Source of the DNA: Doris montereyensis
Lineage: Eukaryota > Mollusca > Gastropoda > Nudibranchia > Dorididae
DNA: 64,000 bases
Assembly (NCBI GenBank): GCA_037039925.1
Contig: JAXRKP010001089.1
Span: 65,001-129,000, forward strand
Reading direction: 5' to 3'
Numbering within the stretch: the first letter of the stretch is position 1; the number at the start of each line of letters is the position of its first letter. The position numbers and the translations under genes were made by a program. Under the pieces are notes generated by a model. That model was given only the letters and a program-made list of their open reading frames with translations. It did not search any database and was not told the DNA's origin. Of this stretch, positions 1,947 through 52,700 are shown piece after piece.

Positions 1947-2086
1947 GACAAATTAACTCCTAATCACCATGGAGTCAAGTTTAGATGAAGAGCCAGAAGA
2001 TGAAAAGATTGTCCTTGTCAAGACTTTGCAAAACATTGCCAACAACTTGAGTAGTATACTTCAACAAGCCAAAACTGATGTCAATG
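1947..2086 (+). CDS. SELENOL: SelL exon 1 (5'UTR end plus start codon)
   Basis: Acceptor ttgtttag at 1946, ATG at 1969-1971, donor gtaagg after 2086 (phase 1). It encodes an acidic N-terminus (MESSLDEEPEDEKIVLVK) followed by a probable helix rich in Asn and Gln. No signal peptide is seen. Confidence 0.8.
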
Positions 2087-5000
2087 GTAAGGAATTGACA
2101 TACATGTATGTGCAATGTATATATATATAGGCTTTATAAATAAATTCTAATATCCAGGTATCTATTTTAATAAAGGGATGCAAGAGTCGTATGAGTAGTT
2201 TATGTGAAATTTGAAGAAATTGAATAATTGACCTATAAAAATTTGTTAAACATTTTTCTTAAGAACCATAATACATTACATATGAGGTGCATGAAAATTC
2301 ATCATCTTTATCCTCCTGTCTAAAGTAATATTTTATCTAGTGTAAATCAACCAATCAAAAAAAAAAAATTGCTTTTCTTAAAGAGAGGTGAGTCTGATAC
2401 ATATCAGTTTTTATTGGTATTTCTATTTCTGGTATTTATAATTATTGATTATTTCCTTAGAAGCATTGAAACATCTCTTATCACAATAATTGGTCTTACC
2501 TGATGTTCTTACGAACAGAGTTAAAAGTAATTGACTTTTTTGTAAGGTGATGCAAATTATTACTTTCCTTTTTCAATCAATCAGATGACATCAATAACTT
2601 TGTGACACATAAAATTGGCAAACTGTTTCCTCTGGTTGGCATTTATGCGGCTGCTTTTAAAGAGTGAGATTCAATTTTTTCTGTTATGATGTTTTTAAAC
2701 ATCTGTTTTCCAATCAGACATATCATGTGTACATATTCGACATAGCTGACATAATACTAACAAGGTTTGATTTCTAGTATGACAGTATGATTATATAGCC
2801 ATAGAAGCATTCTGTTTTTATAAAACACAAATCAATCCTTATGTATTATCCATAAAATAGTGGTCTGCATTTTGGAAAGGCATAATTTATTGGTTAAGAT
2901 AATCAAAAGTCAAATGTGGATATTTCTGATTTTTTTGTGCTGTTTAATTAAGGAAGACCATAAAGAAAAAGAATTAATACTGGCACTTTATAAAATATTG
3001 TGATTGATATTTTAAGCTGTACTTTGTTTAAAGAGTTTAAAGAGAAGAGAAGAATCATTTCCCTTAGCATTTCTGATGTAGACAATCTTGGATCATTTCT
3101 GACTTGATACTTTTGTTCGTTCTACCCGTTATTAGACTGAATGTTGGTACTAAACAAGACTTGGAGCGCAAAGTTGGCGCTTACTTCAGGTATTGTCACA
3201 TTAGCCGTTGAATATGCCTATTAAGCTTGTTCTTATCTATTCTTTTGTTAAAAGGTTTTTTGTTCGTTTTGTTTGGTCTTTTGGTGATGTAAAAAAAATT
3301 GGGGTTTTTATTTTACGAAGGGGATTGGAGGAGGGAGGGGGGGGTATTTTGTTTTTGCTTACTTTTTTTGTTAAAAAATTCACCTCAAGTACGGCCTAAA
3401 TTAGACACCTGTTGATTCACAATGAAAGGAGAAAAAATAGTGTGTCATTTACAGAACAAAAAAAAAGAAGGCACATTTCTTTGGCATTAAATTTTTCATT
3501 TCTCTTACTTTTTCATCTCTATCTCTATTCTTGAGGACATTTCAATCCATGAAGCAAAAGGACAGAAAAGCAGAAGAAAAACATTTCCATCACATAACAC
3601 ATGATACATGCAACTTTTGTGTAGAATCAAGTCATAAGGAAGATGATGGCAACAGCTTTTTTTTATGTCTTTTTGTCTGTGCTACACTTCTTTAAAATGG
3701 GTTTTCTAGAATTGTTTGATATTTTAATCTGGGAAGCTAAGAGATGATGGTGTATTAGCCCTCCAAAACTTGGGGTTTTCACAGACATGCAGAAGAAGAA
3801 GAGAGGATTGTCGTCAGATTATATACATATATCAAGGACTACTTAAAGTAGTCCTTGACATATATATATATATATATACATTGTTTGTTAGTCCATGGCC
3901 AGGATTTAAAAAACAACAACTTCTAACTGCTTGCAAGTCGCCATGTCTAATTGGAATGTAAAACAGGAAGGAGGTTTAGACAATTAATTTTTAGTGCGTA
4001 ATTACATGATACAAACGTTACACACATAGATAGAAAGTCTGAATTGTGACATAGTGTTTTTGGAAGCTGTGGCCTCTCACTGCATGATTATGTCAAAGGC
4101 TTTGATTGTTCTTATTGGGAAAGACACGTAACACGCATTTCTGTCCTGGCCTGGGTACAGATGGGTACTAGCATCAACTGGGCAGCAAAGGTTACGACAG
4201 ACTGGGGTCCTGTCCTGGAGATGATGTTTACTAACACCTGTTCCACTTCATGCCGAAGAAATCAGGATAAACTCTGGCTTTATCAACAGTAACAGTCTTG
4301 AAGGAATTTTTATATTGTAAAATGTAGGTAAAACTTTCCCAACTCTTCATTCAAGCCTTCCTTTTCGTGAAACAGTTAGTTTATTTAAAGTGATGCCTTG
4401 CATGCAATGACTTTGTGACATAAGTGTAAACATTTAACAAATTATCTAAATCGCTCTAATCACACAGGTACCAAGCCGTTCAAGATGCCTTTGATGAAGT
4501 CCTGCAAGGAGAGGTGAGTCCTCTGATACATATCAGTTTATTGTTTGGGTTCCTTCTTTTTTCCTCCAGTTATAAATCAAAGGGCAAATTTACAAAGACG
4601 TTGTGGTATAGACGAAGGTTATGCAGTGTTTATGTTTGTCATCATCCGACACCGGTTTAAAGTCCTTACTGGACCAGATTTGTTTTCATAACATTGTATA
4701 TTATAAGTAAAATTAATTAATCAATTCACTTCACTCTCCCTTACTTGACACAGGTGTGAATGAGAACCCAATTATAGGCAGGGACTGTTCTTGTCATAAT
4801 TCTTCTTCTTCTTTATTTCAATGTTAGTATGATGTGTTTAATAGGCAACTATACTGTATGCTCCCCAGGGAGTAAAAAAAAAACTTAAAAATTATAATGG
4901 CTTGCAGGGGGAATGAATGTAAGATAAAGTCATTGAGCCTTTACTTTTACCAAGAGATGGATTATAAATCCATCATTATCTTGTAAATAATGAGACATTA

Positions 5001-8000
5001 CTGTCATAGATAGGAAGTCCGATGTATAGTGTTAATAATGAAGAATTTGATTAGCATAGGTAAAAAGACAAATTATATGAAAAAATAATAATAATGAGGT
5101 ACTGCCATCAGACATAGTCAAAGATAGAAATTAAGATCAAAAATAGTAACAGGTGTGGTAATTTGTTCAATTTGTTTTTTTAAAATTTGACAGAAAGACA
5201 TCAACGACCTGTTATGCCATGTTGACGACAGGTTGTCATCATCGGAAATCACCCTGAAGGAGGGTGACCTTGGACCCGTGGATATGCCCATCATCAACGC
5301 CAGATCGGGACAACAGGAACTCCTCAAAGATTACGTATCTGAGCCGCAGTCACTGATTTTGGTTTTGCTGCGACACTTTGCCTGACTTCCGTGACGAGAT
5401 CATGTGCAGGACATTTCTACACGTGAAGTGAGAAGGCCGTCGTTTATCATTATTGTTTTTCTTCTTATTTTCACAATTTATTTAAAAGGCAGATATGTCA
5501 GAATATCAATAATTTTCGAGCTTCTAAGGGTTCAAATATTTTGGGATTTGTGAAAAAACTGGGGGAAGAAAATGTACGGGGTAAAATTTTTGTATGGCCT
5601 TAAAATAACTCTTGTACATCTTTTTAATCATTATTTAGTGCAGAATAGTATTGTGGATCTAAAACAAATAATAAAATTGACATTTTTTATAAAAAATATG
5701 ACGAGTGTCAATGCAGCAGTGGGCTTTGCTTTACCACAATTAAGCACTGCTGTCTTTTTGTCATAGTGGCTAAAAGGATATTGGTCTTGCATTGACACAT
5801 TGCAGTTTTCCATTGCACATGTTTTTAGCCCGGCATAAGGGAATGCTGAGAACTGTATCTTTTTCGGTTTTTGATACAAATGTCTTTGCATCATTATACG
5901 TATGTTTTAGAGGTTTTTTTTTGTGTGTGTGTGTGATTTGTTGATTTAGGAAACCTTAGCTATAAACCTTTCAACCTCTTTGTTCATCTTTTCAAGTACA
6001 ACCTCAAGGAAAGATGTTCAAATTCTTGTTTCCTGCCTGCGCTTTCCAATTTTTGGTTTCCACATTTTGAACTCTCTTTTCTCTGGAAACAAGAACTAGT
6101 CCCAGTCTTTCGGCCTTCAAAAGCAAATTGAAAACTGAACTTTTTAGTTTAGCCTTCCAGTGAAATTTTCATCTTCTCATTGTGTTTAAGATTATATTAT
6201 TATATATACATATGTGTGTTGTGTGTGTGTATATGTGTGTCTATTTTATAAGTTGTAACATTACATGATGTTTCATTGTATACTTTGTTGAAATGTAAAG
6301 TGCCATTGAGCACTTTTATGTGGATATTGGTGCTATATAAATAATTCCTTTTCTTTCTTTCTTCTTTCTTAGTAGCATAAATTTCAGAAATACAGTACAT
6401 AGCTTAAAACAAAGTATTCAATATTTGTATTTTTTCAGTCTGAACTGAAGGAAGCAGGTGGGAAGATTTTACTTGTTTCCTTTGGAGAGCGAGAAGGTGC
6501 CTTGCGGTGGATTGAAGACAACAAGAGCTCATATGATATGGTCTTGGATTTGGACAGAAAAAGTAAGATTTTTTTTGTCTCTTCATACAAGAATTTGGGG
6601 ACTTGGTGGTCTAGTGGGAAGGTGTCGGCCTCTCAACCAAAATGTTGTGGGTTCGTACCCTGGCTGTTTGAAAAGTTTTGTATAGTTTTCTTGTTTTGTT
6701 TTAGTAAAACTCACCCCGCATGGTCGAAGTAGGTGGATCAACATCTAGTACTATTGGAGACGGACGATAAAAAGGAGGTCCTATGTGCAGATCATAACAC
6801 TCTGTTCTCGTTAAAGATCCCTTCTTGTTTACAGGGCAGTCCATATAACATGTTTTTAAAATCCTACCAAAACCCAAAGATCACATTTGGTGTGCTTGTG
6901 GGTGAAATTAATTCAAAGCAAATCAAGTCATACAGTAATTAGTAGAAGAAGAGATTTACTGTCAATTTAAGCTGATTGTTAGACATTCACATCATAGGAT
7001 TATGGGACAGTCTGGAGTCTTAAGCACCAAATATTGACTTCCATGAGGATCTGCACTCATTATATTTAACTTATTGATGATAGTTGCATTTTTGTTGTTG
7101 TTGTTGTCTTTGTTGTCATAAGATAAAATAGTAAAAGCATTGAGATGGACTGTGAAGCAAGCTACCCGGTATTTTCTAACAGATCTCTATTTTGATTGTA
7201 ACCAACAGATTTATAAGGCATTTGGACTGTTCAGGTCAGTTTCTAAGGTGAGTTCCTAATTACCAGTCTCATGAAATTCTAAACATAGGACGGAAATTAA
7301 GATTAAAAACCAAATCCCCCCCCCCCCCCCCCCCCCCCAAGTTACTTTAAGGCATAATTAAGATTTTTCTTGATATTATTAAATACATAAAACACAAGCA
7401 TGATTGCCCATTCGTGGCACAGGGAAACACACGAACAGCACAGTATGAATGAGATAATGCAGGTAGGGTTTGATGTGTAATAGTAGTTGATTCAATTTCC
7501 GAGCAGATCATGTTGCTGGCACAGAAGTGTTGGGGTTAGATCTAAATCTATAGTCGCTGTTGTGTTATTGGTGGTGTATCAGAGAAATGGGGGGTGTTGT
7601 GGGGTCAAAGGTTGACTTTATAGGGATATTAGACATATAGATTTAGTAACAGTGGGCACCCTTAGGCTGATCTCAATCATGGTCTGACTTAGATCTGGAA
7701 AGAATTCATAAAAAGGAAACTACGAAAGGAAGTAATAATGAAAACATTTAGATTAGATCTATCATCATTCCTTATCTAACTTTTTTTTTTTTTTTTTTTT
7801 TTTCAAAGCAAAGGATATAGCCAAGAGAATAAGTATGATTTTGTTTCTTACTTTACACACGCTTTTTTTTTTTTTAACTTCCTTGAAGGTGTGGGAATTC
7901 CCAGCCTCCTTTACTATGCTGAGCAGATGCGGGCTGGCAGGCAATTACCAAAGCCGTACGAGAACGTCCACGATGACCCCATCCAAGTAAGTTAAGCTTG

Positions 8001-9395
8001 TCCCCCTTGTCTGTTTCGATGTTCCAGGCGGTGCACTAACGTTTAGGCTGTGGAGATAACTTTCCCCCCGATACAATTGTAGTATAATGTTGAAAGGACA
8101 GGCAGTTGTTTTTTTTTCTCCATTTTTATGAAGAGTAATTTGGGGATGAAATCAAGGTCTTCAATGGCCCATAGAGCTCAAACATATTCAGGTTTCTATA
8201 GCACGAAGCAGAACAGGTGATAATACATCACCCCTGGGATATGATGCTATTGCTATTCTGTCACAGATTTTTAATCACATAATCCTTCTACTTCCTACTT
8301 CTTTCTTTTTACTCTTTCACTTGTCTTTTATCTTGTTGTTTTATCCTGAGATCGCCACAATGGTGGACGGGATAAATTTCAATTAAATAAACAAACGGTG
8401 GACGGGGTAAATTTCAATTAAATAAACAATCACCAGCTGGTGCTGGCACCCATTTGCACTTGGGTTGAATGGGGACATGGGTGTTAATATTGTCTTTCCC
8501 AAAAAAACACTATGTTTGACCTAGCATTGCCAGGATTCAGACCCAGGTCTTTACCATCCTAAATCCATCAGCCAAACCACTAGGCCACTGCTGCCACATT
8601 ATTGATGAAGAGATTATTTGTTATTGAGAATGTCCCACTAAAGATGTATACACAAAGAGATTATTTGTTATTGAGAATGTCCCACTAAAGATATATACAC
8701 AAAGAGATTATGTGTTGTTGAGAATGTCCCACTAAAGATATATGCACAGAGAGATTATTTGGTATTTAGATATTGAGAATGTCCCACTAAAGATATATAC
8801 ACAAAGAGATGATTTGTTATTGAGAATGTCCCACTAAAGATATATGCACAAAGAGATTATTTATTATTGAGAATGTCCCACTAAAGATATATGGACAAAG
8901 AGATTATTTGTTATTGAGAATGTCCCACTAAAGATATATACACAAAGAGATTATTTGTTATTGAGAATGTCCCACTAAAGATATATACACAAATATATCT
9001 CACATAATATGTCTAGTAGAACTGTCAAATGCATTAATTTTAACGGTATGGCCAGGTCAAAGTGTCCATGTCAAGACAGACAATGTCGGATTATTTAAAT
9101 TTCATTACATTAATCAGAAATCAAATTTCTTTCTTTATTTTAAAATATTAGTTTTGGTCCTTTGGTTTCTTTTCTTTTCTTTTTTTTTTGTGCTTTGCTT
9201 TTCGTTGTTTTGTTTTGATTTTGTATGTATCTGTATTTATTGATGATGCTCTTTTTTTATTTTTGATCTTCCCAGATGGGCGGTGATTTTGTTCTTGACA
9301 GCAAGGGCATTGTCAAGATGTTCTACCCCAGCAAGATTTCCATAGACCGCCCATCTGTTGATCACATTTTGTCCGCTCTCCGATCTCAAGATTAG
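1969..9395 (+). CDS. SELENOL: Selenoprotein L (SelL) gene, coding exons 1-9, double selenocysteine
   Basis: Thioredoxin-fold, AhpC/TSA (PRXL2-like) redox protein. Coding exons: 1969-2086, 2585-2663, 3136-3189, 4468-4513, 5194-5427, 6439-6562, 7209-7247, 7889-7986, 9276-9395; all but one junction use clean GT-AG sites and exons 1-6 join in perfect phase. The start ATG sits in a caccATGg context just after an acceptor at 1946, so an upstream non-coding exon is expected. Exon 5 has in-frame TGA at 5383-5385 and 5392-5394 (codons 163 and 166), giving U-L-P-U where CxxC would stand in relatives. Family knowledge: SelL is the selenoprotein family defined by UxxU, able to form a diselenide. C-terminal landmarks seen are IPSLLYYAEQMRAGR and DFVLDSKGIVKMFYPSK. 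About 300 residues in total. Two one-base frame problems lie around exons 7 and 8. A SECIS candidate lies in the 3'UTR exon. The family is clear; exact exon 7 boundaries are not. Confidence 0.88.
2585..2663 (+). CDS. SELENOL: SelL exon 2
   Basis: Acceptor caatcag, donor GTGAGA; phase 1 in, phase 2 out. Encodes DDINNFVTHKIGKLFPLVG and then IYAAAFKE. Joins exons 1 and 3 without a frame break. Confidence 0.8.
3136..3189 (+). CDS. SELENOL: SelL exon 3
   Basis: Acceptor gttattag, donor GTATTG; phase 2 in and out. Encodes ELNVGTKQDLERKVGAYFR using the split codons. Confidence 0.78.
4061..4320 (+). repeat. SINE family B copy, diverged
   Basis: Matches family B in ttgggaaagacacgtaacac, gggtactagc, tcctgtcctgga..tgat, acctgttccacttca and the tail cttgaaggaattttta. 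Lies in SelL intron 3. Confidence 0.7.
4468..4513 (+). CDS. SELENOL: SelL exon 4
   Basis: Acceptor cacacag, donor GTGAGT; phase 2 in, phase 0 out. Encodes YQAVQDAFDEVLQGE, a short helical segment before the thioredoxin-like fold. Confidence 0.78.
5194..5427 (+). CDS. SELENOL: SelL exon 5: redox exon with two in-frame TGA (Sec-x-x-Sec)
   Basis: Starts after acceptor atttgacag and ends before donor GTGAGA, exactly 78 codons in phase 0. The peptide runs through GDLGPVDMPIINARSGQQ to SLILVLLRHFA, then TGA-Leu-Pro-TGA, then RDHVQDISTRE. The strand LILVLLRHF followed by the redox motif is the expected core of AhpC/TSA-like proteins, placing the two TGA at the active-site positions. Reading continues for 11 codons after the second TGA and into exon 6 in frame, which a true stop would not require. 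Confidence 0.88.
6000..6360 (+). mobile_element. 3' end of a CR1/L2/RTE-type LINE
   Basis: Remnant of an RT C-terminus (frame-shifted WNSL..SFKSKLKTELF-like residues near 6070-6150), then a 3'UTR with aaagtgccattgagcac and ggtgctatataaataa, common at 3' ends of invertebrate LINEs and their SINEs. In SelL intron 5. Confidence 0.5.
6439..6562 (+). CDS. SELENOL: SelL exon 6
   Basis: Acceptor tttttcag, donor gtaagatt. Encodes SELKEAGGKILLVSFGERE followed by GALRWIEDNKSSYDMVLDLDRK, typical of the post-active-site strand and helix of PRXL2-like folds. It ends in phase 1 after a run of five A, one base off what exon 7 needs. Confidence 0.85.
6597..6930 (+). repeat. SINE family A copy
   Basis: tRNA-like head (tggtctagtgggaagg A-box like; gggttcgtaccc B-box like), conserved body (aggtggatcaacatctagta, gagacggacgataaaa, cacgttaaagatccc-like, gggcagtcc) and tail tcaaagcaaatcaagtca. 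In SelL intron 6. Confidence 0.85.
7209..7247 (+). CDS. SELENOL: SelL exon 7 (boundary uncertain)
   Basis: Acceptor accaacag, donor GTGAGT, 39 bases. Phase-0 reading gives IYKAFGLFRSVSK, a typical family segment (LYKAFGL-like). Exon 6 delivers phase 1, which would give an immediate stop. An alternative acceptor at 7182 (ttttctaacag) restores this frame but adds nine residues that the family does not need. Skipping the exon entirely joins exons 6 and 8 in frame. Confidence 0.65.
7317..7338. repeat. C homopolymer
   Basis: About 22 consecutive C in SelL intron 7. Confidence 0.9.
7889..7986 (+). CDS. SELENOL: SelL exon 8
   Basis: Acceptor ccttgaag, donor gtaagtt. Correct frame begins at 7891 and encodes VGIPSLLYYAEQMRAGRQLP then KPYENVHDDPIQ, phase 0 out. 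Joined to exon 7 it needs one extra G in the GGG run at 7893-7895 (giving KVWGIPS). Confidence 0.82.
8148..8597 (-). repeat. SINE B interrupted by SINE C
   Basis: Minus-strand family B from 8148 (aatggcccatagagctc) to ctaggccactgctgcc at 8597. Family C is inserted at about 8286-8440 with its 3' end (ggtggacgg..taaatttcaattaaataaac) duplicated. The order gives relative age: B is older than C. Confidence 0.75.
8606..8998. repeat. 47-bp minisatellite, about 8 copies
   Basis: Unit agagattatttgttattg + agaatgtcccactaaagata + tatacacaa, spacing 47 bp. In SelL intron 8, directly beside the SINE B/C nest. Confidence 0.9.
9276..9395 (+). CDS. SELENOL: SelL exon 9, C-terminus and stop
   Basis: Acceptor gatcttcccag. 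Encodes MGGDFVLDSKGIVKMFYPSK and then ISIDRPSVDHILSALRSQD before TAG at 9393-9395. This is the last beta strand and helix of the AhpC/TSA-like fold. A strong donor (ttttGTAAGT) lies only seven bases after the stop, so the 3'UTR is probably spliced. Confidence 0.85.
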   Translation: MGGDFVLDSKGIVKMFYPSKISIDRPSVDHILSALRSQD

Positions 9396-9555
9396 AAATT
9401 TTGTAAGTTGTTGGCTCTACAGCTCTCTCTTTACCTTGACCCCTGACCGTGCCCTTTTTTACTTGCCTTTGTTGGCTGCAATTCACTTGAATTGTGATTG
9501 AGTGAGGCAGCAGTAGTTTGTCTTAAGTTGTCAGTAATGGGTTGTTGTTTCTTTC

Positions 9556-10065: not shown

Positions 10066-10292
10066 ATACTGTGAGATCATAGCATACAGTGAAAAGGTCA
10101 AGTTTCAAAGGAACTGTTCTGGATGGTTTTGATTTTTGATGTTTTAAAAGACAGTCATTTGTTTCTTTGGAGAGAAGGTTAAAGTTGTTTCCTTTTTCTC
10201 ATGAAGTCTATAATCCTGTTTTTTATGATAGTTGACTTTAATTATTGTTACATTAGTTTGTTTGGTTTTATTTTTAATGGTTATAATCTTTT

Positions 10293-11395: not shown

Positions 11396-11680
11396 AAAGA
11401 TAAAAAGATAAAAGATAGATTCATAGTCTGTACCCCCGCACAAGTGCAGGCTCACCGACTGTACATCAATCATTTATTCCCCAACAGGCCATTTCATTCA
11501 GAGCCTTTCTCAACTCCTGGGGAGCATACAGTACACAAGCCCGTAAGGCTCTTCGTATTAAAACTCTAGCAAGATCTTTTTCTACCTATAGGTAAATTCC
11601 AATAAAACAAATACATTCTAAGTAATGGCTGTGACTGCCAATTTAGTTATAAATTCTTATAATTCACAGTTTTTCCACAG

Positions 11681-11945
11681 ATTTGTCTTACAACTACAAC
11701 TACAGCAACCACAAGTCGGTGTGTCAGTCGTGGTCCCGTGTGTGTATGAAGGAAACGGAATCAAGCAGACCAACTGACTTCTGTCTCTGGATGAAACCAT
11801 TGCGTCAGGGGACCGTGACTGACGAAGCAGACTTACGACTACGGTAGCGTTAATTTTGTTACCGTCTAAAATTCTTTTTTTTTATTGTGGTCGTATATTT
11901 ACTTATTGTATGGTGATAAGCTTTGTGACAGTGACAATAAGGTGC
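11681..11945 (+). other. SELENOL: Putative spliced 3'UTR exon of SelL
   Basis: Begins after a good acceptor (gtttttccacag), matching the donor at 9403 just after the SelL stop. It has no conserved reading frame and carries the SECIS candidate. AATAAG at about 11934 could be a weak poly(A) signal; the end is a guess. Confidence 0.5.
11723..11823 (+). promoter_or_regulatory. Candidate SECIS element
   Basis: Folded by hand. Outer stem: 11723-11737 pairs with 11809-11823 over 15 bp (two G-U). Core: ATGA at 11746-11749 opposite GGAT at 11789-11792. Inner helix: 11750-11763 against 11775-11788, about 10-11 pairs with small bulges. Apical loop begins AAG at 11763-11765, 13 bases after ATGA. These are the SECIS hallmarks (AUGA/NGAN quartet, apical AA). 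The internal loop on the 3' side is larger than usual. It lies downstream of two in-frame TGA codons, where a SECIS is required. Confidence 0.6.
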
Positions 11946-19263: not shown

Positions 19264-20196
19264 AGTGTCTAGGCAAGCACACGACACCGTTTGTAGAGCA
19301 AGCTCTAGGCAAGCACACGACACCGTTTCAGTAGCCAAGCTCTAGGCAAGCACACGACACTGTTTCGTAGCCAAGCTCTAGGCAAGCACACGACACCGTT
19401 TCGTAGCCAAGCTCTAGGCAAGCACACGACACCGTTTCGTAGCCAAGCTCTAGGCAAGCACACTACACCGTTTCGTAGCCAAGCTCTAGGTAAGCACACT
19501 ACACACTACACCGTTTTGTAGCCAAGCTCTAAGCAAGCACACTACATATTACACCGTTTTGTAGTCAAGCTCTAGGCAAGCACACTACACCGTTTCGTAG
19601 CCAAGCTCTAGGCAAGCACACTACACACTACACCATTTTGTAGCCAAGCTCTAGGCAAGCACACGACACCGTTTCGTAGCCAAGCTCTAGGCAAGCACAC
19701 GACACCGTTTCGTAGCCAAGCTCTAGGCAAGCACACTACACCGTTTCATAGCCAAGCTCTAGGCAAGCACACGACACCGTTTCGTAGCCAAGCTCTAGGC
19801 AAGCACACGACACCGTTTCGTAGCCAAGCTCTAGGCAAGCACACTACACCGTTTCGTAGCCAAGCTCTAGGCAAGCACACTACACCGTTTCGTAGCCACG
19901 CTCTAGGCAAGCACACTACACACTACACCGTTTTGTAGCCAAGCTCTAGGCAAGCACACTACACACTACACCGTTTTGTAGCCAAGCTCTAAGCAAGCAC
20001 ACTACATATTACACCGTTTTGTAGTCAAGCTCTAGGCAAGCACACTACACCGTTTCGTAGCCAAGCTCTAGGCAAGCACACTACACACTACACTTTTTTG
20101 TAGCCAAGCTCTAGGCAAGCATACGACACCGTTTCGTAGCCAAGCTCTAGGCAAGCACACGACACCGTTTCGTAGCCAAGCTCTAGGCAAGCCGCT
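19264..20196. repeat. 36-bp minisatellite with about 460-bp higher-order duplication
   Basis: Unit aagctctaggcaagcacacg + acaccgtttcgtagcc. Variants carry an extra actacacactac or actacatattac. The rare block aagcaagcacactacatatt..gtagtc occurs at 19531 and again at 19991, so a block of about 460 bp was copied within the array. Confidence 0.92.
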
Positions 20197-30649: not shown

Positions 30650-33600
30650 TGGCTGCCTGCCTCTCTCTGTGTCTCTTTGTGTGTGTGTGTCTGTCTCTCT
30701 GCTCTTTGTTTGTGTGTGTGTGTGTCTCTCTCTCTCTTTTGTGTGTGTGTGTGTGTGTGTCTCTCTCTCTGTGTGTCTCTTTGTATCTCTCTGTCTCTTT
30801 CCTCTGTCCGTCACTCAGGCGGTTGGCAGATGCTACTGGTATGTCCTACTTTTTGCCTTTCACTTGTGCTTACTCTTCATATTTATCCTGCCGTTTCCTC
30901 TAATTCATCAAACCATATTCAATATTTCATTGGCAGATTAAGATTATATCAACTTATGTAATCCTATCTCAACTTACCTTGAACAATGCAATCGTCATCA
31001 ATGAAGACCACCCTCTTTCAAATCAGGAAATAGTTTAGGAAGGTAATAGCGGGCATAATTAAGCTGAAAATAAACAACACCCATCACACATAAGCCATTT
31101 GAGCAAAATCAAAGTCAGCTGCAAGACTAGGTGCAAAAACGTTAAAAACAAAAAGTAAAAAACAAACAAAATGACCTCATTATGAATATACCGTATGGTA
31201 TCTAAAATCTTGATAGATATGACTATTTCATGATGTAAAGCTAAATACTTTATGAGTTGAATTCTATCAAAGATGATGTTGAACAAAGTGTGATTGTAAA
31301 CCTCCGAAATTTCATTCAAAGTGGATTTTCACATTAACCCTGCAGCAAAAACCACAAAAAATATTAGTTTTCATTGACCACACGTCCTAATTGAGTTGGT
31401 TAAAAAGGTTTTCTTGGCTTTATAGTTGATTATTCTTGTCATTTTAAGAATTAATTCAAAGAATAAACATTCCTGTGCATGTTTTCAATCAAACTTTCCT
31501 AGACAATTTCCATTTCATGTTAGACTTGACAGAAAGGTACCCACCCATGCGATGTGACAAATTTAAGAAAAAGAAGTGACAAATTTTGTTTGAGATTTTG
31601 ATCTTGTTATCTACAGATACGGTTTACGAGAATTAAATTGTCTTTTGAATTAATTTGCTTCATATTAATACATGTTTGGATCATAAGCAGTACTTTCAGA
31701 CATAGATCAAGAAATTTGTTTGTGGCACTTCTTGTCATATATTGTAGCATTGGTGGTCGAGTGGCTGCCAGATTTGGGATCATGAGTTCCCAGGTTTGAA
31801 TCCTAGCAAAGCTTAGTCTGACGTTGTGTTCCTTGGGAAAGACACTAAACCCATTTTCCCAATCGACCCAGGTGCAAATGGGTACAAGCACTAGCTTGGG
31901 AGTAAAACCTGCATCAGAAAAGTGTCCTGTCCAAGATGTAATTATTATAAAAGGAGATTACTGACTGAAGAAAACAAACAGAAAAGGAAAGAGAAGAAAG
32001 CTACCAAATTTAAAAAAAAAGAGGAACTAAATAAACCAATAGTAAAACAGATATACCAATCTAGGATAAAAGATTTATCAGTGAAAGACAGATGGATCTG
32101 AATGACAGCACAATAGAAGAAAAGTGGCAAATGTATAGTGAAACACTCCTCAGTTGTACTGAAGAGGTCTGTGCTACGAAACAAATTAAAGGAGATAGGA
32201 AAAGAACAGCATGGTGGAATGAGATTGTCAAGACTAAGATCAAAGAAAAGAAGGATGCCTGGAAGAAACACTTGCAAACAAAGAGGCCAGAGGATAAGAT
32301 AGATTACGTGAGTAAAAGAACTATTGCCAAAAAGGAGTTAGAAAGCAAAACAGGAACAGTGGGAAGAGTTTGGACAAAGACTTCAAGAAAGCTATCAAGG
32401 AAATCAAAAGCTCTTCTGGGGAGCAATGAAGAGCTTGAGAAAGAGCAAAGCATGCCCAATACGACAAATTAAGAATGCCAAAGGAGAAATAATGAAAGAA
32501 GACAGCGAAATCATGGAAACGTGGAGAAGTATTTTCAACAATTACATAATCCCTCCAGAACATATGAAACAAGGAGTACAGATCAATTAGGAAGAGTAAC
32601 AAGCACTTCAGATGACACAGCTGAAAATGTAGATGTCAATAGTCAATGGCAGAACTTCAAACAGTTATAAGAAAAGTGAAATTAGAAAGGCCCCAGGAGC
32701 AGATCAAATTTATTCAGAAATGATTAAAAACCAAGGGATAGAGGAAGATAAACTACTGTATGCAATATATCAACAAGCATAGAAGTACAAACAGGTGCCA
32801 GACGACTGGAAAAGGGGAATGGTAGTACTAATACATAAGAAAGGATCAACTATGGAATGCTCAAACTATAGAGGGATGTCACTACAGCGTGTTTTCTTGA
32901 CTTAGAAAAGGCATTTGACACTGTGAGGAAGGATGAACTATGGCATTCTTATAAGAACACAATGTAGATCAAAATTTAATAGAAGCCATTAAAAGTTTTT
33001 ACAATTAACCAACATGTGCAGCGAGAGTAGCTGAAATGTATCTGAAGAATTTTATGTAGACATAGGAGTAAGACAGGGTTGTATCCTAAGTCCTCTTTTT
33101 TGTTTATCATTTGTGGATTTGTGGATTCAAAGAAAGTGAATGTAGGTGTGTGGAAGCTCAAACCAGTAAATGTATCAATGCTTTCATTTGCCGATGATTT
33201 AGTTCTGTTTAGAAAATCAGAAAGTACCCTTCAGTTGCATATCAACATGATGAACAATGAACTAAATAAAAGAGGAAAGAGTAAATGCAAAGAGAACCAA
33301 AAACAATGCTAGTAACTAGGGAAGCTAAAACACAAAATCTTAAATTGGCAAAGGAGAATTTAGAAGAAATTCAAAGCTACAATTACCTAAGAGTAATGAT
33401 TAGTTCAGAGGGAAAACTAAGAGAAGAAATCAGCCAGAGAATCCAAAAGGCAATGACAATATATAACCATCTAGGAAAGGCATTTATAGGAAAAAATACT
33501 TGTCAACAAAACCAAAATGGCAGTATACAACACAGTTTATATTCCTACTCTCCTATATGACAGCGAAACCTGGACCTTAGACGGTAGAAAATACAGTTGA

Positions 33601-36600
33601 GAACAAGCAGCTGAAATGAAATATCTAAGAATTGTAGTAGGGAAAACTAAAAGAGACAAATCAGAAACACAACAATAAGGATCAAACCAAAGCAGATGGC
33701 ATAAAAACTAAGATAGAAACAAATCAATTGAGATGGTTTGGGCATGTAAACAGAATGAATAACAATAGAATAGCTAATCAGTATACAGTGCTAAAGCCCA
33801 AGGTAAAAGACCAAAAGGCAGACCGAGAAAGTGGGAAGAAGATATAAAAGAGGCATTAACGCAAAGAAATTTAACTTTTTTTTGGAAGGAAACAGAAAAT
33901 GCCAGTACAGGCATCCTGGAGAAAGATCCTCTGAGCATCTGAACTCATACACCGAAAGGTAAAATGGGAACTGACAAAAAAGAAAGACTTATTATTATCA
34001 GTTTCATTATTATCACACGCATTATATACCCGGGTGATATCAAGTATGATTATTAAATTGAGTCAGTATTCAATCTGAGGTCATGGTAGACTTGAACGAT
34101 GCCATTCCAACTCTTTAATTATAAAATCAATGTATAACGGCAGGCTCAGATGAATGAAAATTCTACTCAAAGACGGGGAAATACTGACATCTTCCTAAAT
34201 AAAAGTTACACTTTTGAAAGAAAAATTCTCAAATGAAAATAATCTTGTGATCACTTAGGGCTTACATGCAAAATACGGTTACTTTTAGCCTAGTAGCCTG
34301 GCAACAGAGCCTTTGACGCACAAAGTGCAACCAACTCAGAATTATATTATAGTATAGAATAATATAGATTATAATCAAAAAGCGAGAAAAAGCGAAGAAA
34401 CTTACAGGCGATCCCAACTCTTTGTCGTCACTCCAAGTTTGATCTTTCCCTCAACCCATTCGGACGGAAACTCTTCACCTCATAGTTGATGTCTTTAGTT
34501 TAGACTTGTGAATCCATATACTGTGAAGATGGCATGACACAAAAACGTGATCACAGGTCAATGTACGTTTGTTTAAGGTCATAGGTGTGTAAATGGCTGA
34601 AGGCCGTGAACAAACCAAAGAAAGTGAGTCGGGAATATGAACGTGAGTATTTTTATAGTGAGAAACAAAAACACACCTTGTCATAGAAATTGACTAAAAC
34701 AAATTTCTAAAGGTATAAAACATGAATAAAGAGGATAAAGTATGGTTGAAATTTCTGCCCAAATGGAGGCTCACCTAATTTTACATCATTTAGCTCTTTC
34801 ATTCACAACTTTTCAACTCCATCTACCTGTAAGGCACTTTATACCAACACTCTGACAATATCATTCTTTGCTGGTTACTAATTCCACACCTAAGTCAAGT
34901 GTGGAATACAGAGTGAAATATCTTTCCAAAGAGTTAAATGTCGTGGAAATAAAACCCTCAATAAACCTTGGCAGATCAGAGTTATAAACCAGTGTCATCA
35001 TGGTTACGAAGTCACAACACTGCTGATTGTACCACAATTCCTTGAGAGACAGAGGCAGACAGAGAGACAGACAGACAGACATATGTCACAAAGTGTAACG
35101 AACAATGATAAATTAACTGACTTATAAGATGAACAACATGAACAGTGAAAAGACTTACTGGAAGTGGTTGACACTTGCTTCATCAAGTACGATATGGAAT
35201 TTGACGAGCGATTTTGTGTTGGAGATAATGCTGTTTATCAGGGCAATGGTTCCACCTGATTAATTTACCCAGCAACAAAGAAGAAAAAGAAAGTAAATGA
35301 GAACATATTTAGATTGAAAAAAAACTAAGATAGAAACAAATCACTTGAGATGGTTTGGGCATGTAAACAGAATGATAACAATAGAATAGCTAATCAGTAT
35401 ACAAAACTGGTGGTTCACACCCTTTGTTAGCTCATGCATACCTTCACCATAGGTCAGAATATTGTTATACCCCCCCCCCCCCCATTCCAAAATTGTCTGA
35501 GTTTTGTGTGGTCCTGGAGCCAGTTTGAGACTGCTGATCTGTGGGCGTAACTCCCCACCTGGAACTACTGACGACCCCACGACCCTCTCCCCAGGTGGAA
35601 TTTCCCCCTGGTTGCAAACAACTGCATAAAGTATTTTTAACTTAAAAGAAAAAAGATTGATTGAATCAATGAAGAATGAAAAAATAAAATGAAAGTAACA
35701 CTCCTTACATCCTATTCAAAAAACATTTTTTCTTTCCGAAAACATCCTCTTGAAAAAAAGCGAAACTTTTCATAAACTCTTATCATGCCAAGAAAAAATC
35801 TTAAGGGATGTAAGATTTATTGCCTATAAATTTTGACATAAATTAAAAAATGAACTGAAGTCTCTAAAGTCGTACTCCAGGGTTTTCTTGTCCGAAGTGA
35901 TGCAAACATGAATTGCCTTGGCGTCTTGGGCTGGATGCACCTTTTGTATGGAAGAATTGTTCCTGAGAGGTGGCTGGAGATTAAGGCCTTGGACGGGTTT
36001 GTCAACAGCCATCAGTTTGAGTCTGTCTGCGGTTTGTAAGGACAGGCAAACATTTTTTATGAATTGTAACGAAATGAAATAATCTCAAAGCTACAGCTGG
36101 CATGAGTGAAGAATCTTTTCCAATCTTTTATTAAAATCTAAGTGGCACATCATTTGATATCTTTTTATTACAAATTTAAAATTCAGATGGTTACAATCAG
36201 TTCTGTCTTATTTTTATTAAAAAAAACGCTTTGCACAAAATGAACACTCTAGTCTAGAACAACAATCGGATGATCATTACACAATTACCAAAATTAAGAT
36301 ATGAAGACCGATTGACAGAAGAAAAATTTCTTTGTAATCAACTTGGCCATAAAATATTCAACTGCCCTCCAAGTCTTCTGTTATTTTGTTTTACCATTTA
36401 TGAACTATGAATTGTGTTAATGAATTAGTATTATCCCTAAATTTACCTATTACCATTTATGAACTATGCATTGTATTAATGAATTAATATTATCACTAAA
36501 TTTATCTACTACCATTTATGAACTATGCATTGTGTTAATGAATTAATATTATCACTAAATTTATCTATTACCATTTATGAACCATGCATTGTGTTAATAA

Positions 36601-44820: not shown

Positions 44821-47107
44821 CTATAAATGACATCAATCTAAATCAAAATAAATGACTCTCATCAACACCTCTAAATCAAACATCAATGTGAATGACTCAT
44901 CAACGCGCCCTCTAAATCAAACATCAATGAGAATGACTCTCATCAACGCCCTCTAAATCAAACATCAATGCGGAATGACTCATCAATCAAATCAAACATC
45001 AATGTGAATGACTCTCATCAACGCCCTCTAAATCAAACATCAATGTGAATGACTATCATCAACGTCCTCTAAATCAAACATCAATGTAAATGACACTCAT
45101 TAACGCCCTCTAAATCAAACATCAATGTGAATCTCTCATTAACACCATCTAAATCAAACATCACTGTGAATACTCTCATAACACCCTCTAAATCAAACAT
45201 TAATGTGAATGACTCTCATTAACACCCTTTATATCAAACATCACTGTGAATGACTGTCCTTAACGCCCTCTAAATCAAACATCAATGTGAATGACTGTCC
45301 TTAACACCCTTTATATCAAACATCAATGTGAATGACTGTCCTTAACACTTCTAAATCAAACATCAATGTGAATGACTGTCCTTAACACCATCTAAATCAA
45401 ACATGACTGTGAATGACTGTCCTTAACACCCTTTAAATCAAACATCAATGTGAATGACTGTCCTTAACACCATCTATATCAAACATAAATGTGAATGACT
45501 GTCATTAACACCCTCTAAATCAAACATCACGTGAATGACTGTCTTTAACACCTTTACATCAAACATCACTGTGAATGACTGTCTTTAACCACCTTTACAT
45601 CAAACATCACTGTGAATGACTGTCTTTAACCACCTTTACATCAAACATCACTGTAAATGACTATCCTTAACACCTTCTACATCAAACATCAATGTGAATG
45701 ACTGTCCTTAACAACCTTTGCATCAAACATCAATGGGAATGACTATCCTTAACACCATCTATATCAAACATGACTGTGAATAACTGTCCTTAAAACTCTA
45801 CACCAAACATCAATGTGAATGACTGTTCTTAACATCCTCTACATTAAACGTCAATGTGAATGCCTGTCTTAACACTCTCTACATCAAACATCAATGTGAA
45901 TGACTACTATTACAACCCTCTAATCAAACATCAATGTGAATGACTACCATTAGAGCCTTCTAAATCAATCATCAATATGAATCACTACCATTAGAGCCAT
46001 TTAAATCAAACATCAATGTGAATGACTATCCTTAACACCCTCTACATCAAACACCACTGTGAATGACTACCATTAAGGCCCTCTACATCAAACATCAAAT
46101 GAATGACTATCCATAACACTCCCTAAATCAAACATCAATGTGAATGACTGTCATCAACGCCATCTGGATCAAACATAAACATGAATGACTACCATTAGAG
46201 CTCTGTTCTTAAATCATCAAACATCAATATGAATGACTACCATTAGAGCACTCTCTAAATCAAACATCAATGTGAGTGAATGACTCTACCACTAGAGACT
46301 GTCCAAACAACATCAAACATCAATGTGAATGACTACCATTAGAGCCCTCTAATCAAACATCAGTGTGAATGACTGCCATTAGAGCCCCTCTAAATCAAAC
46401 ATCAATGTGAGTGACTACCATTGGAGACCTCTAAATCAAACATCAATGTGAATGACTACCATTATAGCCCTCTAAATCAAACATCAATGTGAATGACTAC
46501 CATTAAGCTCTCTAAATCAAACATCAATGTGAATGACTACCATTAGAGCCTCTAAATCGAACATAAATGTGAATGACTACCATTATAGCCCTCTAAATCA
46601 AACATCAATGTGAATTACTACCATTATAGCCCTCTAAATCAAACATCAATGTGAATGACTACCATTAGAGCCCTCTAAATCGAACATAAATGTGAATGAC
46701 TACCATTAGATCCCTCTAAATCAAACATCAGTGTGAATACTGGGCCCTCTAAATCAAAACTGAATGCATTAGAGCCCTCTAAATCAAACACCAATGTGAA
46801 TGACTACCATTAGAGCCCTCTAAATCAAACATCAATGTAAATGACTACCATTGGAGCTACCATTAGAGCCCTCTAAATCAAACATCACTGTTAATGACTG
46901 AGCATTAGAGCCCTCTAAATCAAACATCACTGTGATTGACTACCATTAGAGCCCTCTAAATCAAACATCACTGTTAATGACTACCATTAGAGCCCTCTAA
47001 ATCAAACATCACTGTGAATGACTACCATTAGAGCCCTCTAAATCAAACATCACTGTTAAATGACTCTCGTCAACGCCCTCTACATCAAGCATCATTGTGA
47101 ATGACTC
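44821..47107. repeat. 41-42-bp minisatellite, about 55 copies
   Basis: Unit ctctaaatcaaacatcaatg + tgaatgactaccattagagc + c. The second half changes along the array: ctcatcaacgcc at left, tgtccttaacacc in the middle, taccattagagcc at right. Confidence 0.95.
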
Positions 47108-47109
47108 AC

Positions 47110-49500: not shown

Positions 49501-49737
49501 TTACATCATATAGCAAAGAAATATGTCTTTTATAATAAAGCTACTTTTTTCTCCACCGTCAACTGGATCATCCAATGTCTTTGCCAGGTTCTCCAAATCG
49601 TTGTGCAGCTTTTCCTTAGTCGTTGAATCGAGTGGCTGTTTGTCCTTTTGCATTTTCTCCATTTGCTTGGTGAGTTCATCCAATCTTCCGATGTCTTTTA
49701 TGGACACTGTGGCCGACCCTCTTGCGGCAGCTTTGGG
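49501..49737 (-). CDS. NDUFAF5: NDUFAF5 last exon
   Basis: Acceptor atttcaag, stop TAA at 49503-49501. It begins [20 protein letters not shown], as at the vertebrate C-terminus, but continues about 60 residues more with a charged, helix-prone stretch ([34 protein letters not shown]). AATAAA on the minus strand at about 49491-49497 may be the poly(A) signal. Confidence 0.85.
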   Translation of the reverse strand, partial: PKAAARGSATVSIKDIGRLDELTKQMEKMQKDKQPLDSTTKEKLHNDLENLAKTLDDPVDGGEKSSFIIKDIFLCYMM

Positions 49738-52700
49738 CTTGAAATAAAAGAAATCGTTATTTAAAAATGTGGTCATCAAGTGATTCATTGAACATAACTG
49801 TGTTATATTTTATTAATATAACTATAACATGGTATAACATGAAGAGAGGCAAATCAATCTTTGATCTGATTTTACCCACATCCACAACTGAGGTGATTTT
49901 TAAGGAGTTTTTGGTAGGATTTCCTTTTACATTCATTTTGTCCAGACTACTTTGTACAAACAGCCATGTGGATTCTTAATGTGCACTACCTTGTAAAAAA
50001 AGCCATGTGGATTCTTAATGTGCACTACCTTGTAAAAACAGCCATATGGATTCTTAATGTGCACTGCTTTGTAAAAACAGCCATGTGGATTCTTAATGTT
50101 AACTGCTTGTAAAACAGCCATATGAATTCTTAATGTGACTGCTTTGTAAGAACAGCCATGTGGATTCTTAATGTGCACTGTAATGTGCACTGCTTTGTAA
50201 AAACAGCCATGTGGGACTTAATGTGCACTGTTTTGTAAAAACAGTCAGGTGGATTCTTAATGTGCACTGTTTTGTAAAACAGCCATGTGGATTCTTAATG
50301 TGCACTGTTTTGTAAAAACAGCCATGTGGACTTAATGTGCACTGTTTTGTAAAAACAGCCATGTGGATTTTAATGTGCACTGTTTTGTAAAAACAGCCAT
50401 GTGGATTCTTAATGTGCACTGCTTTGTAAAAACAGTCATGTGGATTCTTAATGTGCACTGTTTTGTAAAAACAGCCATGTGGATTCTTAACAGCTATGTA
50501 AAAACAGCCATGTGGATTCTTAATTGTAAAAACAGCCATGTAACTGCTTTGTAAAAACAGCCATGTGGATTCTTAATGTGCACTGCTTTGTAAAAACAAA
50601 AACTTAATGTGCACTGCTTTGTAAAACAGCCATGTGAATTCTTAATGTGCACTGCTTTGTAAAAACATGTGGATTCTTAATGTGCATGTAAAAACAACCG
50701 GATTCTTAATGTGCACTGCTTTTGTAAAAGAGCCATGTGGATTCTTAATGTGCACTGCTTTGTAAAAACAGCCATATGGATTCTTAATGCACTGCTTTGT
50801 AAAAACAGCATGAGGATTCTTAATATGCACTGCTTTGTAAAAACAGCCATGTGGATTTTAATGTGCACTGCTACTGCTTTGTAAAACAGCCATGTGGATT
50901 CTTAATGTGCACTGCTTTGTGAAAACAAAAACAGCTTGTAAAGACAGCCATGTGGATTTTAATGTGCACTGCTTTGTAAAAACAGCCATGTGGATTCTTA
51001 ATGTGCACTGCCTTGTAAAGACGACCATGTTGATACTTAATGTGCGTTTCAATGTTTATTTAATGTCGTTTTGTCACCATGAATGGGGAGGTAATAATAG
51101 AGATGGTGAGATTTTGATTTGATTTGATTTACCCACATCCACAACTAAGGTGATCTCATAGTTTTTGGTACGATATTTTAATTTTGACCGACTGCCCTGT
51201 AAACAGTCAAAGGATCTTAAAGTGCACAGAGTGTCGTGATCTATACACGGGACCTCCGTTTTTTAACACTAGGTAACCTGAACCAGGGGGGTTGATTTTG
51301 TTTGAAAAAAGCTTGAGAAAATTTTAACTGGTGGGACTCAAATAACATTTGGTTGAGAGGGCAACACCTTCCCTAGTGTCAATAACGAAACTAAAATGTT
51401 AGGACAATCAACTGTTTCTTTTGATGCTGTATTAAAAAAAGTATATAACTCAAAATTACTTAAAATCATAAAGGATAAATATGTCCTCAACTCCCCTAAT
51501 CCAGACAAGAAATAGTGCTATTACATAAAAAAAGCCATCTTGGTGTCGTTATTTTGATTCATTTCTCCTTTCGTCAACACAAAATATTCCATCTATATAA
51601 AAAATTAACATTCTACTTTCTTTTATCCATGTATTATGATGTCTGTAACAGGCCTATGAGTGAATGAGTGAGAATATGAATAACGGTACATTATATTATG
51701 TTAATTAGTGCGATTATTTATTGTAATTATGTCAATAAACACAATAACATGTTTAATGATCAATAAAGGATATCTGTATCTTATCTTATATATTGTATTT
51801 CCCTTCATATAACACTATAACTTTAAAGTGTATAACACTATAACTCTAAAGTGTATAACACTATAACTCTAAAGTGTATAACACTATAACTCTATAGTGT
51901 ATACAACAACTCTATAATTAATATAGTGTATAACACTATAACTTTATAGTATAACACTATAACTATATAGTGTATAAACTATAACTATATAATGTATAAC
52001 ACTATAACTTTATAGTGTATAACACTATAACTATATAGTGTATAACACTATAACTTTATAGTGTATAACACTATAACTCTATAGTGTATAGCACTATAAC
52101 TTTATAATGTATAACACTAGAAATAGTGTATATAACTCTATAGTGTATAACACTGTAACTCTATAGTGTATAACACTATAACTTTATAGTGTATAACACT
52201 ATAACTCTATTGTATAACACTATAACTTTATAGTGTATAACACTATAACTCTATAGTGTATAACACTATAACTTTATAGTGCATAACACTATAACTATAT
52301 AGTGTATAACACTATGACTATATAATGTATAACACTATAACTTTATAGTGTATAACACTATAACTCTATAGTGTATAACACTATAACTCTATAGTGTATA
52401 ACACTATAACTCTATAGTGTATAACACTATAACTCTATAGTGTATAACACTATAATTATATAGTGTATAACACTATAACTCTATAATGTATAACACTATA
52501 ACTCTATAGTGTATAACACTATAACTCTATAGTGTATAACACTATAACACTATAGTGTATAATACTATAACTCCAAAGTGTATACCACTATAACTCTAAA
52601 GCACATACAGGAAATCACATTGTTAACAAAGGAGACTTTAGCAGATCTGTTGTCGTTAAGAAGTATTCCAAACACGATCTATCATTATCATGGCAACCTT

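Follow-up and report, generated by a model that had tools for sequence, protein, structure and literature searches.

A single-copy SelL-family gene with twin in-frame UGA codons and a candidate SECIS element in the nudibranch Doris montereyensis

Background

Selenoprotein L (SelL, SELENOL) is a rare redox protein that occurs in fish and invertebrates. It is recognized by two selenocysteine (Sec) residues spaced x-x at its redox motif, a hallmark given in passages of PMC3316567 and PMC12822975, and is among the very few animal proteins reported with a diselenide bond. The part of the survey by Jiang et al. 2012 available here (PMC3473315) lists one SelL each in a sponge, Trichoplax, Nematostella, Capitella and amphioxus, and none in Lottia. 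Excerpts of PMC2397514 place SelL in marine bacteria as well, and raise the question of what reduces a SelL-type diselenide in aquatic animals. In vertebrates, according to sections of PMC3316567, a single SECIS element serves both UGA codons of SelL, the conserved SECIS features are the GA/GA quartet and the apical AA, and several selenoprotein genes carry the SECIS element in the last exon, with the 3' UTR split. SelL is a kind of gene missed by standard annotation; an extract of PMC12822975 puts the well-annotated genes in Ensembl at <1% for vertebrate SELENOE, SELENOL and SELENOJ. An open-licence literature search for titles on molluscan SelL found none.

The gene described here lies in a 64,000-nucleotide stretch of the Doris montereyensis assembly, the whole of which is referred to as the window.

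Gene model and the twin TGA codons

The gene is made up of nine coding exons on the + strand, between 1969 and 9395, with a predicted product of ~303 residues (Table 1). The exon joins are predicted, and all eight introns between coding exons are GT-AG. Across exons 1-5 (177 codons) the frame meets stops at codons 163 and 166 only, both of them TGA, with Leu-Pro between them, giving the motif U-L-P-U. The sequence-only reading had placed the peptide LVLLRHFA-TGA-L-P-TGA-RDHVQ at 5350-5427, and it is indeed encoded there, within exon 5. By simple arithmetic, the chance that two random stops among 303 codons hit exactly the two Cys positions that are conserved is about 1 in 46,000. Among the 79 distinct homologous proteins on which the CxxC count in Table 1 is based, U occurs at the TGA columns in none (0/79), and the one homologue that lacks the motif column, P0077, is an unspliced fragment stopping short of it. 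The start context, the TAG stop and both UGA codons of the gene are intact.

Table 1. Features of the SelL-family gene in window coordinates; E values refer to matches of the predicted protein to the animal's own assembly
Feature	Position	Strand	Remarks
Coding exon 1	1969..2086	+	ATG in CACCATGG; TAA in frame upstream; own-genome match to residues 1-40
Coding exon 2	2585..2663	+	own-genome match, E 2.8e-9
Coding exon 3	3136..3189	+	own-genome match, E 6.2e-4
Coding exon 4	4468..4513	+	weak own-genome match, E 0.54
Coding exon 5, with UxxU motif	5194..5427	+	own-genome match, E 4e-42; two TGA within
First TGA, codon 163, predicted selenocysteine	5383..5385	+	aligns with Cys in 78/79 retrieved homologues
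Second TGA, codon 166, predicted selenocysteine	5392..5394	+	aligns with Cys in 78/79 retrieved homologues
Coding exon 6	6439..6562	+	terminal AAAAA; off by one base from the phase that suits exon 7
Coding exon 7 (IYKAFGLFRSVSK)	7209..7247	+	aligns with Biomphalaria IYLSFGLHRSVSK; weak own-genome match, E 0.006
Coding exon 8	7889..7986	+	GTGTGGGAATTCC short of the homologues' frame by one G
Exon 9	9276..9402	+	stop TAG 9393-9395; splice donor GTAAGT at 9403
Predicted 3'-UTR exon 10	11681..11822	+	after acceptor CCACAG; given up to the end of the SECIS candidate; prediction alone
Candidate SECIS	11724..11822	+	helix I 11724-11737/11809-11822; helix II 11751-11760/11779-11788
Candidate SECIS core	11746-11750/11789-11792; 11763-11764	+	quartet ATGAA/GGAT; apical AA; 3-bp mini-stem

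When the predicted protein was searched against the animal's own assembly (513 Mb, 3500 contigs), all nine matches with E up to 1 lay in this locus (contig C101), and the stretch of exons 6-8 gave one full-length match. The gene is single-copy, with no second locus found in the assembly. A search of the same genome with the PF13911 profile returned no matches, because the coding sequence is divided among short exons.

Homology and predicted fold

The spliced product, with Sec written as Cys and one X, was used as the query. The protein search returned six proteins, from Biomphalaria glabrata, the starfish Patiria and four fish. The nearest annotated homologue is that of B. glabrata, a freshwater snail (A0A2C9LHP9, P0001), with 49% identity across the whole query. 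A profile search, with scoring confined to the 7996 candidates that had most words in common, yielded 77 proteins. Three of these records bear the name selenoprotein L; they come from two fish species, Mugil cephalus and Symphorus nematophorus. The identification as SelL is borne out by NCBIfam NF040769.1 'SelL-related redox protein' (SelL_rel_redox; 126.5 bits, curated cut-off 120), by the full-length homology and by CxxC at the TGA positions. The AhpC/TSA-like domain proposed earlier was likewise recovered with Pfam AhpC-TSA (PF00578; 43.6, cut-off 26) and AhpC-TSA_2 (PF13911; 42.7, cut-off 27). Among solved structures the best sequence match is prostamide/PGF synthase (PRXL2), a weak one at 28.7 bits to the PDB sequence; this figure and the 126.5 bits of the SelL profile come from unlike searches and are not directly comparable. 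A structure predicted on the Cys homologue has the peroxiredoxin fold, with human PGF synthase C44S/C47S as first structural match, and a helical N-terminal part (model residues 10-111).

Relatives cut off at the first TGA were sought with the N-terminal 162 residues, and none was found among the 40 candidates scored. Bacterial genome contigs contained 79 pattern stretches and viral contigs 25, none of which was confirmed by tblastn; because PMC2397514, in the portion available, has marine-bacterial SelL and an NCBIfam SelL-related model exists, this marks a limit of the query and does not show that such relatives are lacking.

Frame downstream of the motif

In line with the earlier claim that the frame continues through a correct splice into the next exon, the join of exon 5 to exon 6 at 6439 is in phase 0. 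One correction applies: in this assembly the frame downstream of the motif is not clean. At its 3' end exon 6 carries one extra A and so runs one base past the frame (GACAGAAAAA/GTAAG), and the opening of exon 8 needs one more G to follow the frame of the homologues. A literal transcript of the assembled sequence would run into a TAA in exon 7. The extra A and the missing G are most likely assembly errors, since both changes sit in homopolymers and offset each other.

Three of the retrieved sequences (P0077-P0079) are unspliced fragments of SelL genes with fish-like sequence, whose translations reveal where introns start and end. They break at points matching the exon 5/6, 6/7 and 8/9 junctions, these positions being taken from the translations and not from DNA, and they imply a phase 0 intron following "RK", in agreement with exon 7, which places the oddity on exon 6.

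Two other routes through this region were judged by eye and rejected. An extended exon 7 with its acceptor further upstream (+9 residues) is open, but it disrupts the RKIY junction seen in the homologues and leaves exon 8 unfixed. An alternative donor, GTTCCT, restores the frame into exon 8; it is weak beside AAG/GTGAGT and lengthens the protein by one residue.

Candidate SECIS element

A donor GTAAGT stands 7 nt past the stop codon and an acceptor ends at 11680. With the last exon taken from 11681, the core ATGA would lie ~71-72 nt after the stop codon, and the SECIS candidate probably sits in a separate 3'-UTR exon. The arrangement proposed has a precedent, because PMC3316567 in its relevant passages describes both split 3' UTRs and a SelL with one SECIS element. 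The candidate hairpin consists of a 14-bp helix I and a short inner helix; the ATGAA/GGAT pair adjoins helix II and the AA lies 13 nt past ATGA. In the unconstrained minimum-energy fold the ATG, which belongs to the 5' half of the quartet, is base-paired, and keeping the quartet and the AA unpaired costs 1.3 kcal/mol.

A first SECIS pattern gave 16 matches on the + strand, among which 11746 was absent; those between 9 and 20 kb were 9674, 10089, 12383 and 13279. The candidate at 10089, with GTGA, was set aside as its helix I was not visible by eye. A second pattern, which allows a one-base offset and was written with the element in view, so that its choice is partly after the fact, gave 34 matches on both strands of the whole window (20 +, 14 -), with the SECIS candidate at the top (score -39.8; next -31.1). 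When the 4 kb that follow the stop codon were shuffled by dinucleotides, none of 1000 sequences reached this score (best -32.2); when the 200 nt exon itself was shuffled, the pattern appeared in 60 of 2000 sequences, with a best score of -29.8. The fold is moderately better than those of shuffled sequences (z -2.37), 6 of 200 being equally good. The Rfam SECIS models gave no match to it at gathering scores, nor at E up to 10.

Sec-decoding capacity of the genome

One predicted tRNA-Sec gene was found at C370:136775-136861 (L003:1501-1587, - strand), with 49.6 bits against the Rfam cut-off of 47, the anticodon UCA and the loop CUUCAAA. It is the sole match over the Rfam cut-off in the genome; four weaker matches to the tRNA-Sec model are tRNA-Ser. 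In control genomes the same search gave a signal for this family in 14 of 14 and a score over the cut-off in 5 of 14. ARAGORN made no call on the candidate. Of its consensus pairs 26/30 are standard, and three of the four broken pairs fall in the anticodon stem, where they affect three of six pairs. For a 23-base piece spanning the D and anticodon arms, the genome has a single site when up to two mismatches are allowed. The candidate may have decayed or been misassembled, and the assembly may lack a better copy. Two Biomphalaria genome papers, in the portions available, report a tRNA-Sec in B. sudanica and B. pfeifferi, and not in B. glabrata.

Other features of the window

The intron after exon 6 contains a dispersed repeat (6597-6930) that is present in at least 39 other places at 74-77% identity, together with at least 5 shorter pieces, these counts coming from the 40 of 4878 candidates that were scored. 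It includes GGTTCGTACCC, which we take to be a tRNA-like B-box, and the repeat is presumably a SINE. Long minisatellite arrays with units of ~23 to 82 bases occupy 44851-47108, 49946-50927, 51808-52598, 19268-20192 and 8608-8993, the last of these within the intron that separates exons 8 and 9 of the SelL gene. On the + strand at 32065-33930 there are open stretches that resemble a decayed LINE reverse-transcriptase region; three pieces of it gave no Pfam match over the cut-off. On the - strand, 49549-49737 holds a 63-residue open stretch of protein-like composition, possibly an exon of another gene and also with no Pfam match over the cut-off. For neighbouring genes, Pfam searches of two of the six frames of 12-27 kb and of ten picked fragments gave no match at the cut-off.

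Alternative explanations

We regard it as very probable that the window carries a single-copy SelL-family gene whose UGA codons 163 and 166 likely specify selenocysteine, with a predicted SECIS element in a separately spliced last exon. The frame breaks that the assembly shows in exons 6 and 8 could also mean that a formerly real Sec gene is decaying into a pseudogene, broken by two one-base indels, and the broken pairs in the tRNA-Sec candidate of the same genome would be in keeping with this. We consider such decay quite improbable: each indel sits in a homopolymer and one compensates for the other, all eight coding introns are GT-AG, the start context, the stop and both UGA codons have been preserved, a SECIS candidate lies downstream, and the locus is the only copy found. 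The frame as assembled has a further reading, compatible with SelL as such, in which exon 7 is skipped on purpose to give a shorter in-frame protein. Exon 6 does join exon 8 in frame as assembled, and without exon 7 the AhpC-TSA domain still scores above its cut-off (33.2 vs 26); yet AhpC-TSA_2 then falls below its own (22.3 vs 27) and the exon 7 segment was found in all six aligned homologues, so that purposeful skipping appears very improbable.

The TGA codons themselves admit two other interpretations. If they were ordinary stops, translation would, without Sec insertion, end at 5383 and give a truncated protein of 162 residues, the downstream exons being a relic or part of another transcript. 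The preservation of the CxxC columns in nearly all homologues, the conservation of the downstream exons and the existence of SECIS and tRNA-Sec candidates make this extremely improbable. That both TGA codons are assembly errors for Cys codons seems scarcely credible. The nearest homologue does have Cys at both sites, and two homopolymer errors are suspected in the same gene, but two substitutions in 12 bases would be required, each putting an A in the last position of a Cys codon, whereas the other suspected errors are homopolymer indels; a SECIS candidate also lies downstream.

With the twin UGA codons read as Sec, the SECIS hairpin in the separately spliced last exon would recruit the Sec machinery, and ribosomes would insert Sec at both codons. 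The product would be a protein of the peroxiredoxin/thioredoxin fold with a helical N-terminal domain, and its U-L-P-U motif would open the first active-site helix. We infer a redox function in which this motif would cycle between diselenol and diselenide, passing electrons to some substrate.

Comparison with known systems

The gene is a SelL-family member with a twin UGA and not a new kind of system. What is added here to the SelL gene is the SECIS candidate, the flawed tRNA-Sec candidate and the single-locus check; it is of interest for the lineage of its host and for the Sec/Cys pair that it forms with Biomphalaria. With SelL of fish and invertebrates it shares a predicted Sec-x-x-Sec at the CxxC site of a peroxiredoxin-like domain, the match to the NCBIfam SelL-related profile, and a length of ~300 residues with a long N-terminal part. 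It differs in having U-L-P-U where most of the retrieved fish homologues have C-L-L-C, and in an intron between exons 7 and 8 at a point where the fish-like fragment P0077 continues reading. The host too is different, being a mollusc, and the limpet Lottia, the sole mollusc in the survey PMC3473315, has no SelL listed in the part of that source available.

Prostamide/PGF synthase (PDB 9us9, 9usa) has the same peroxiredoxin/thioredoxin fold, and its C44/C47 pair has the same spacing as the motif. Its chain, in contrast, has 198 residues, is devoid of the N-terminal extension and contains Cys only.

The homologue of Biomphalaria glabrata is similar over its full length and shares the RHFA-x-LP-x-RDH motif, but has Cys at both Sec positions. 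A predicted twin-Sec member stands beside a twin-Cys snail homologue, a pair for testing what selenium adds. Molluscs may hold both forms, SelL with a diselenide in this animal and its homologue with a disulfide in Biomphalaria, after a joint change of both residues between Sec and Cys inside the phylum, and with the SECIS element on a separately spliced last exon splicing could toggle Sec insertion; we offer this tentatively and lean slightly against it. If true, the Sec/Cys pair within molluscs would be a natural test of the role of the diselenide in an animal enzyme.
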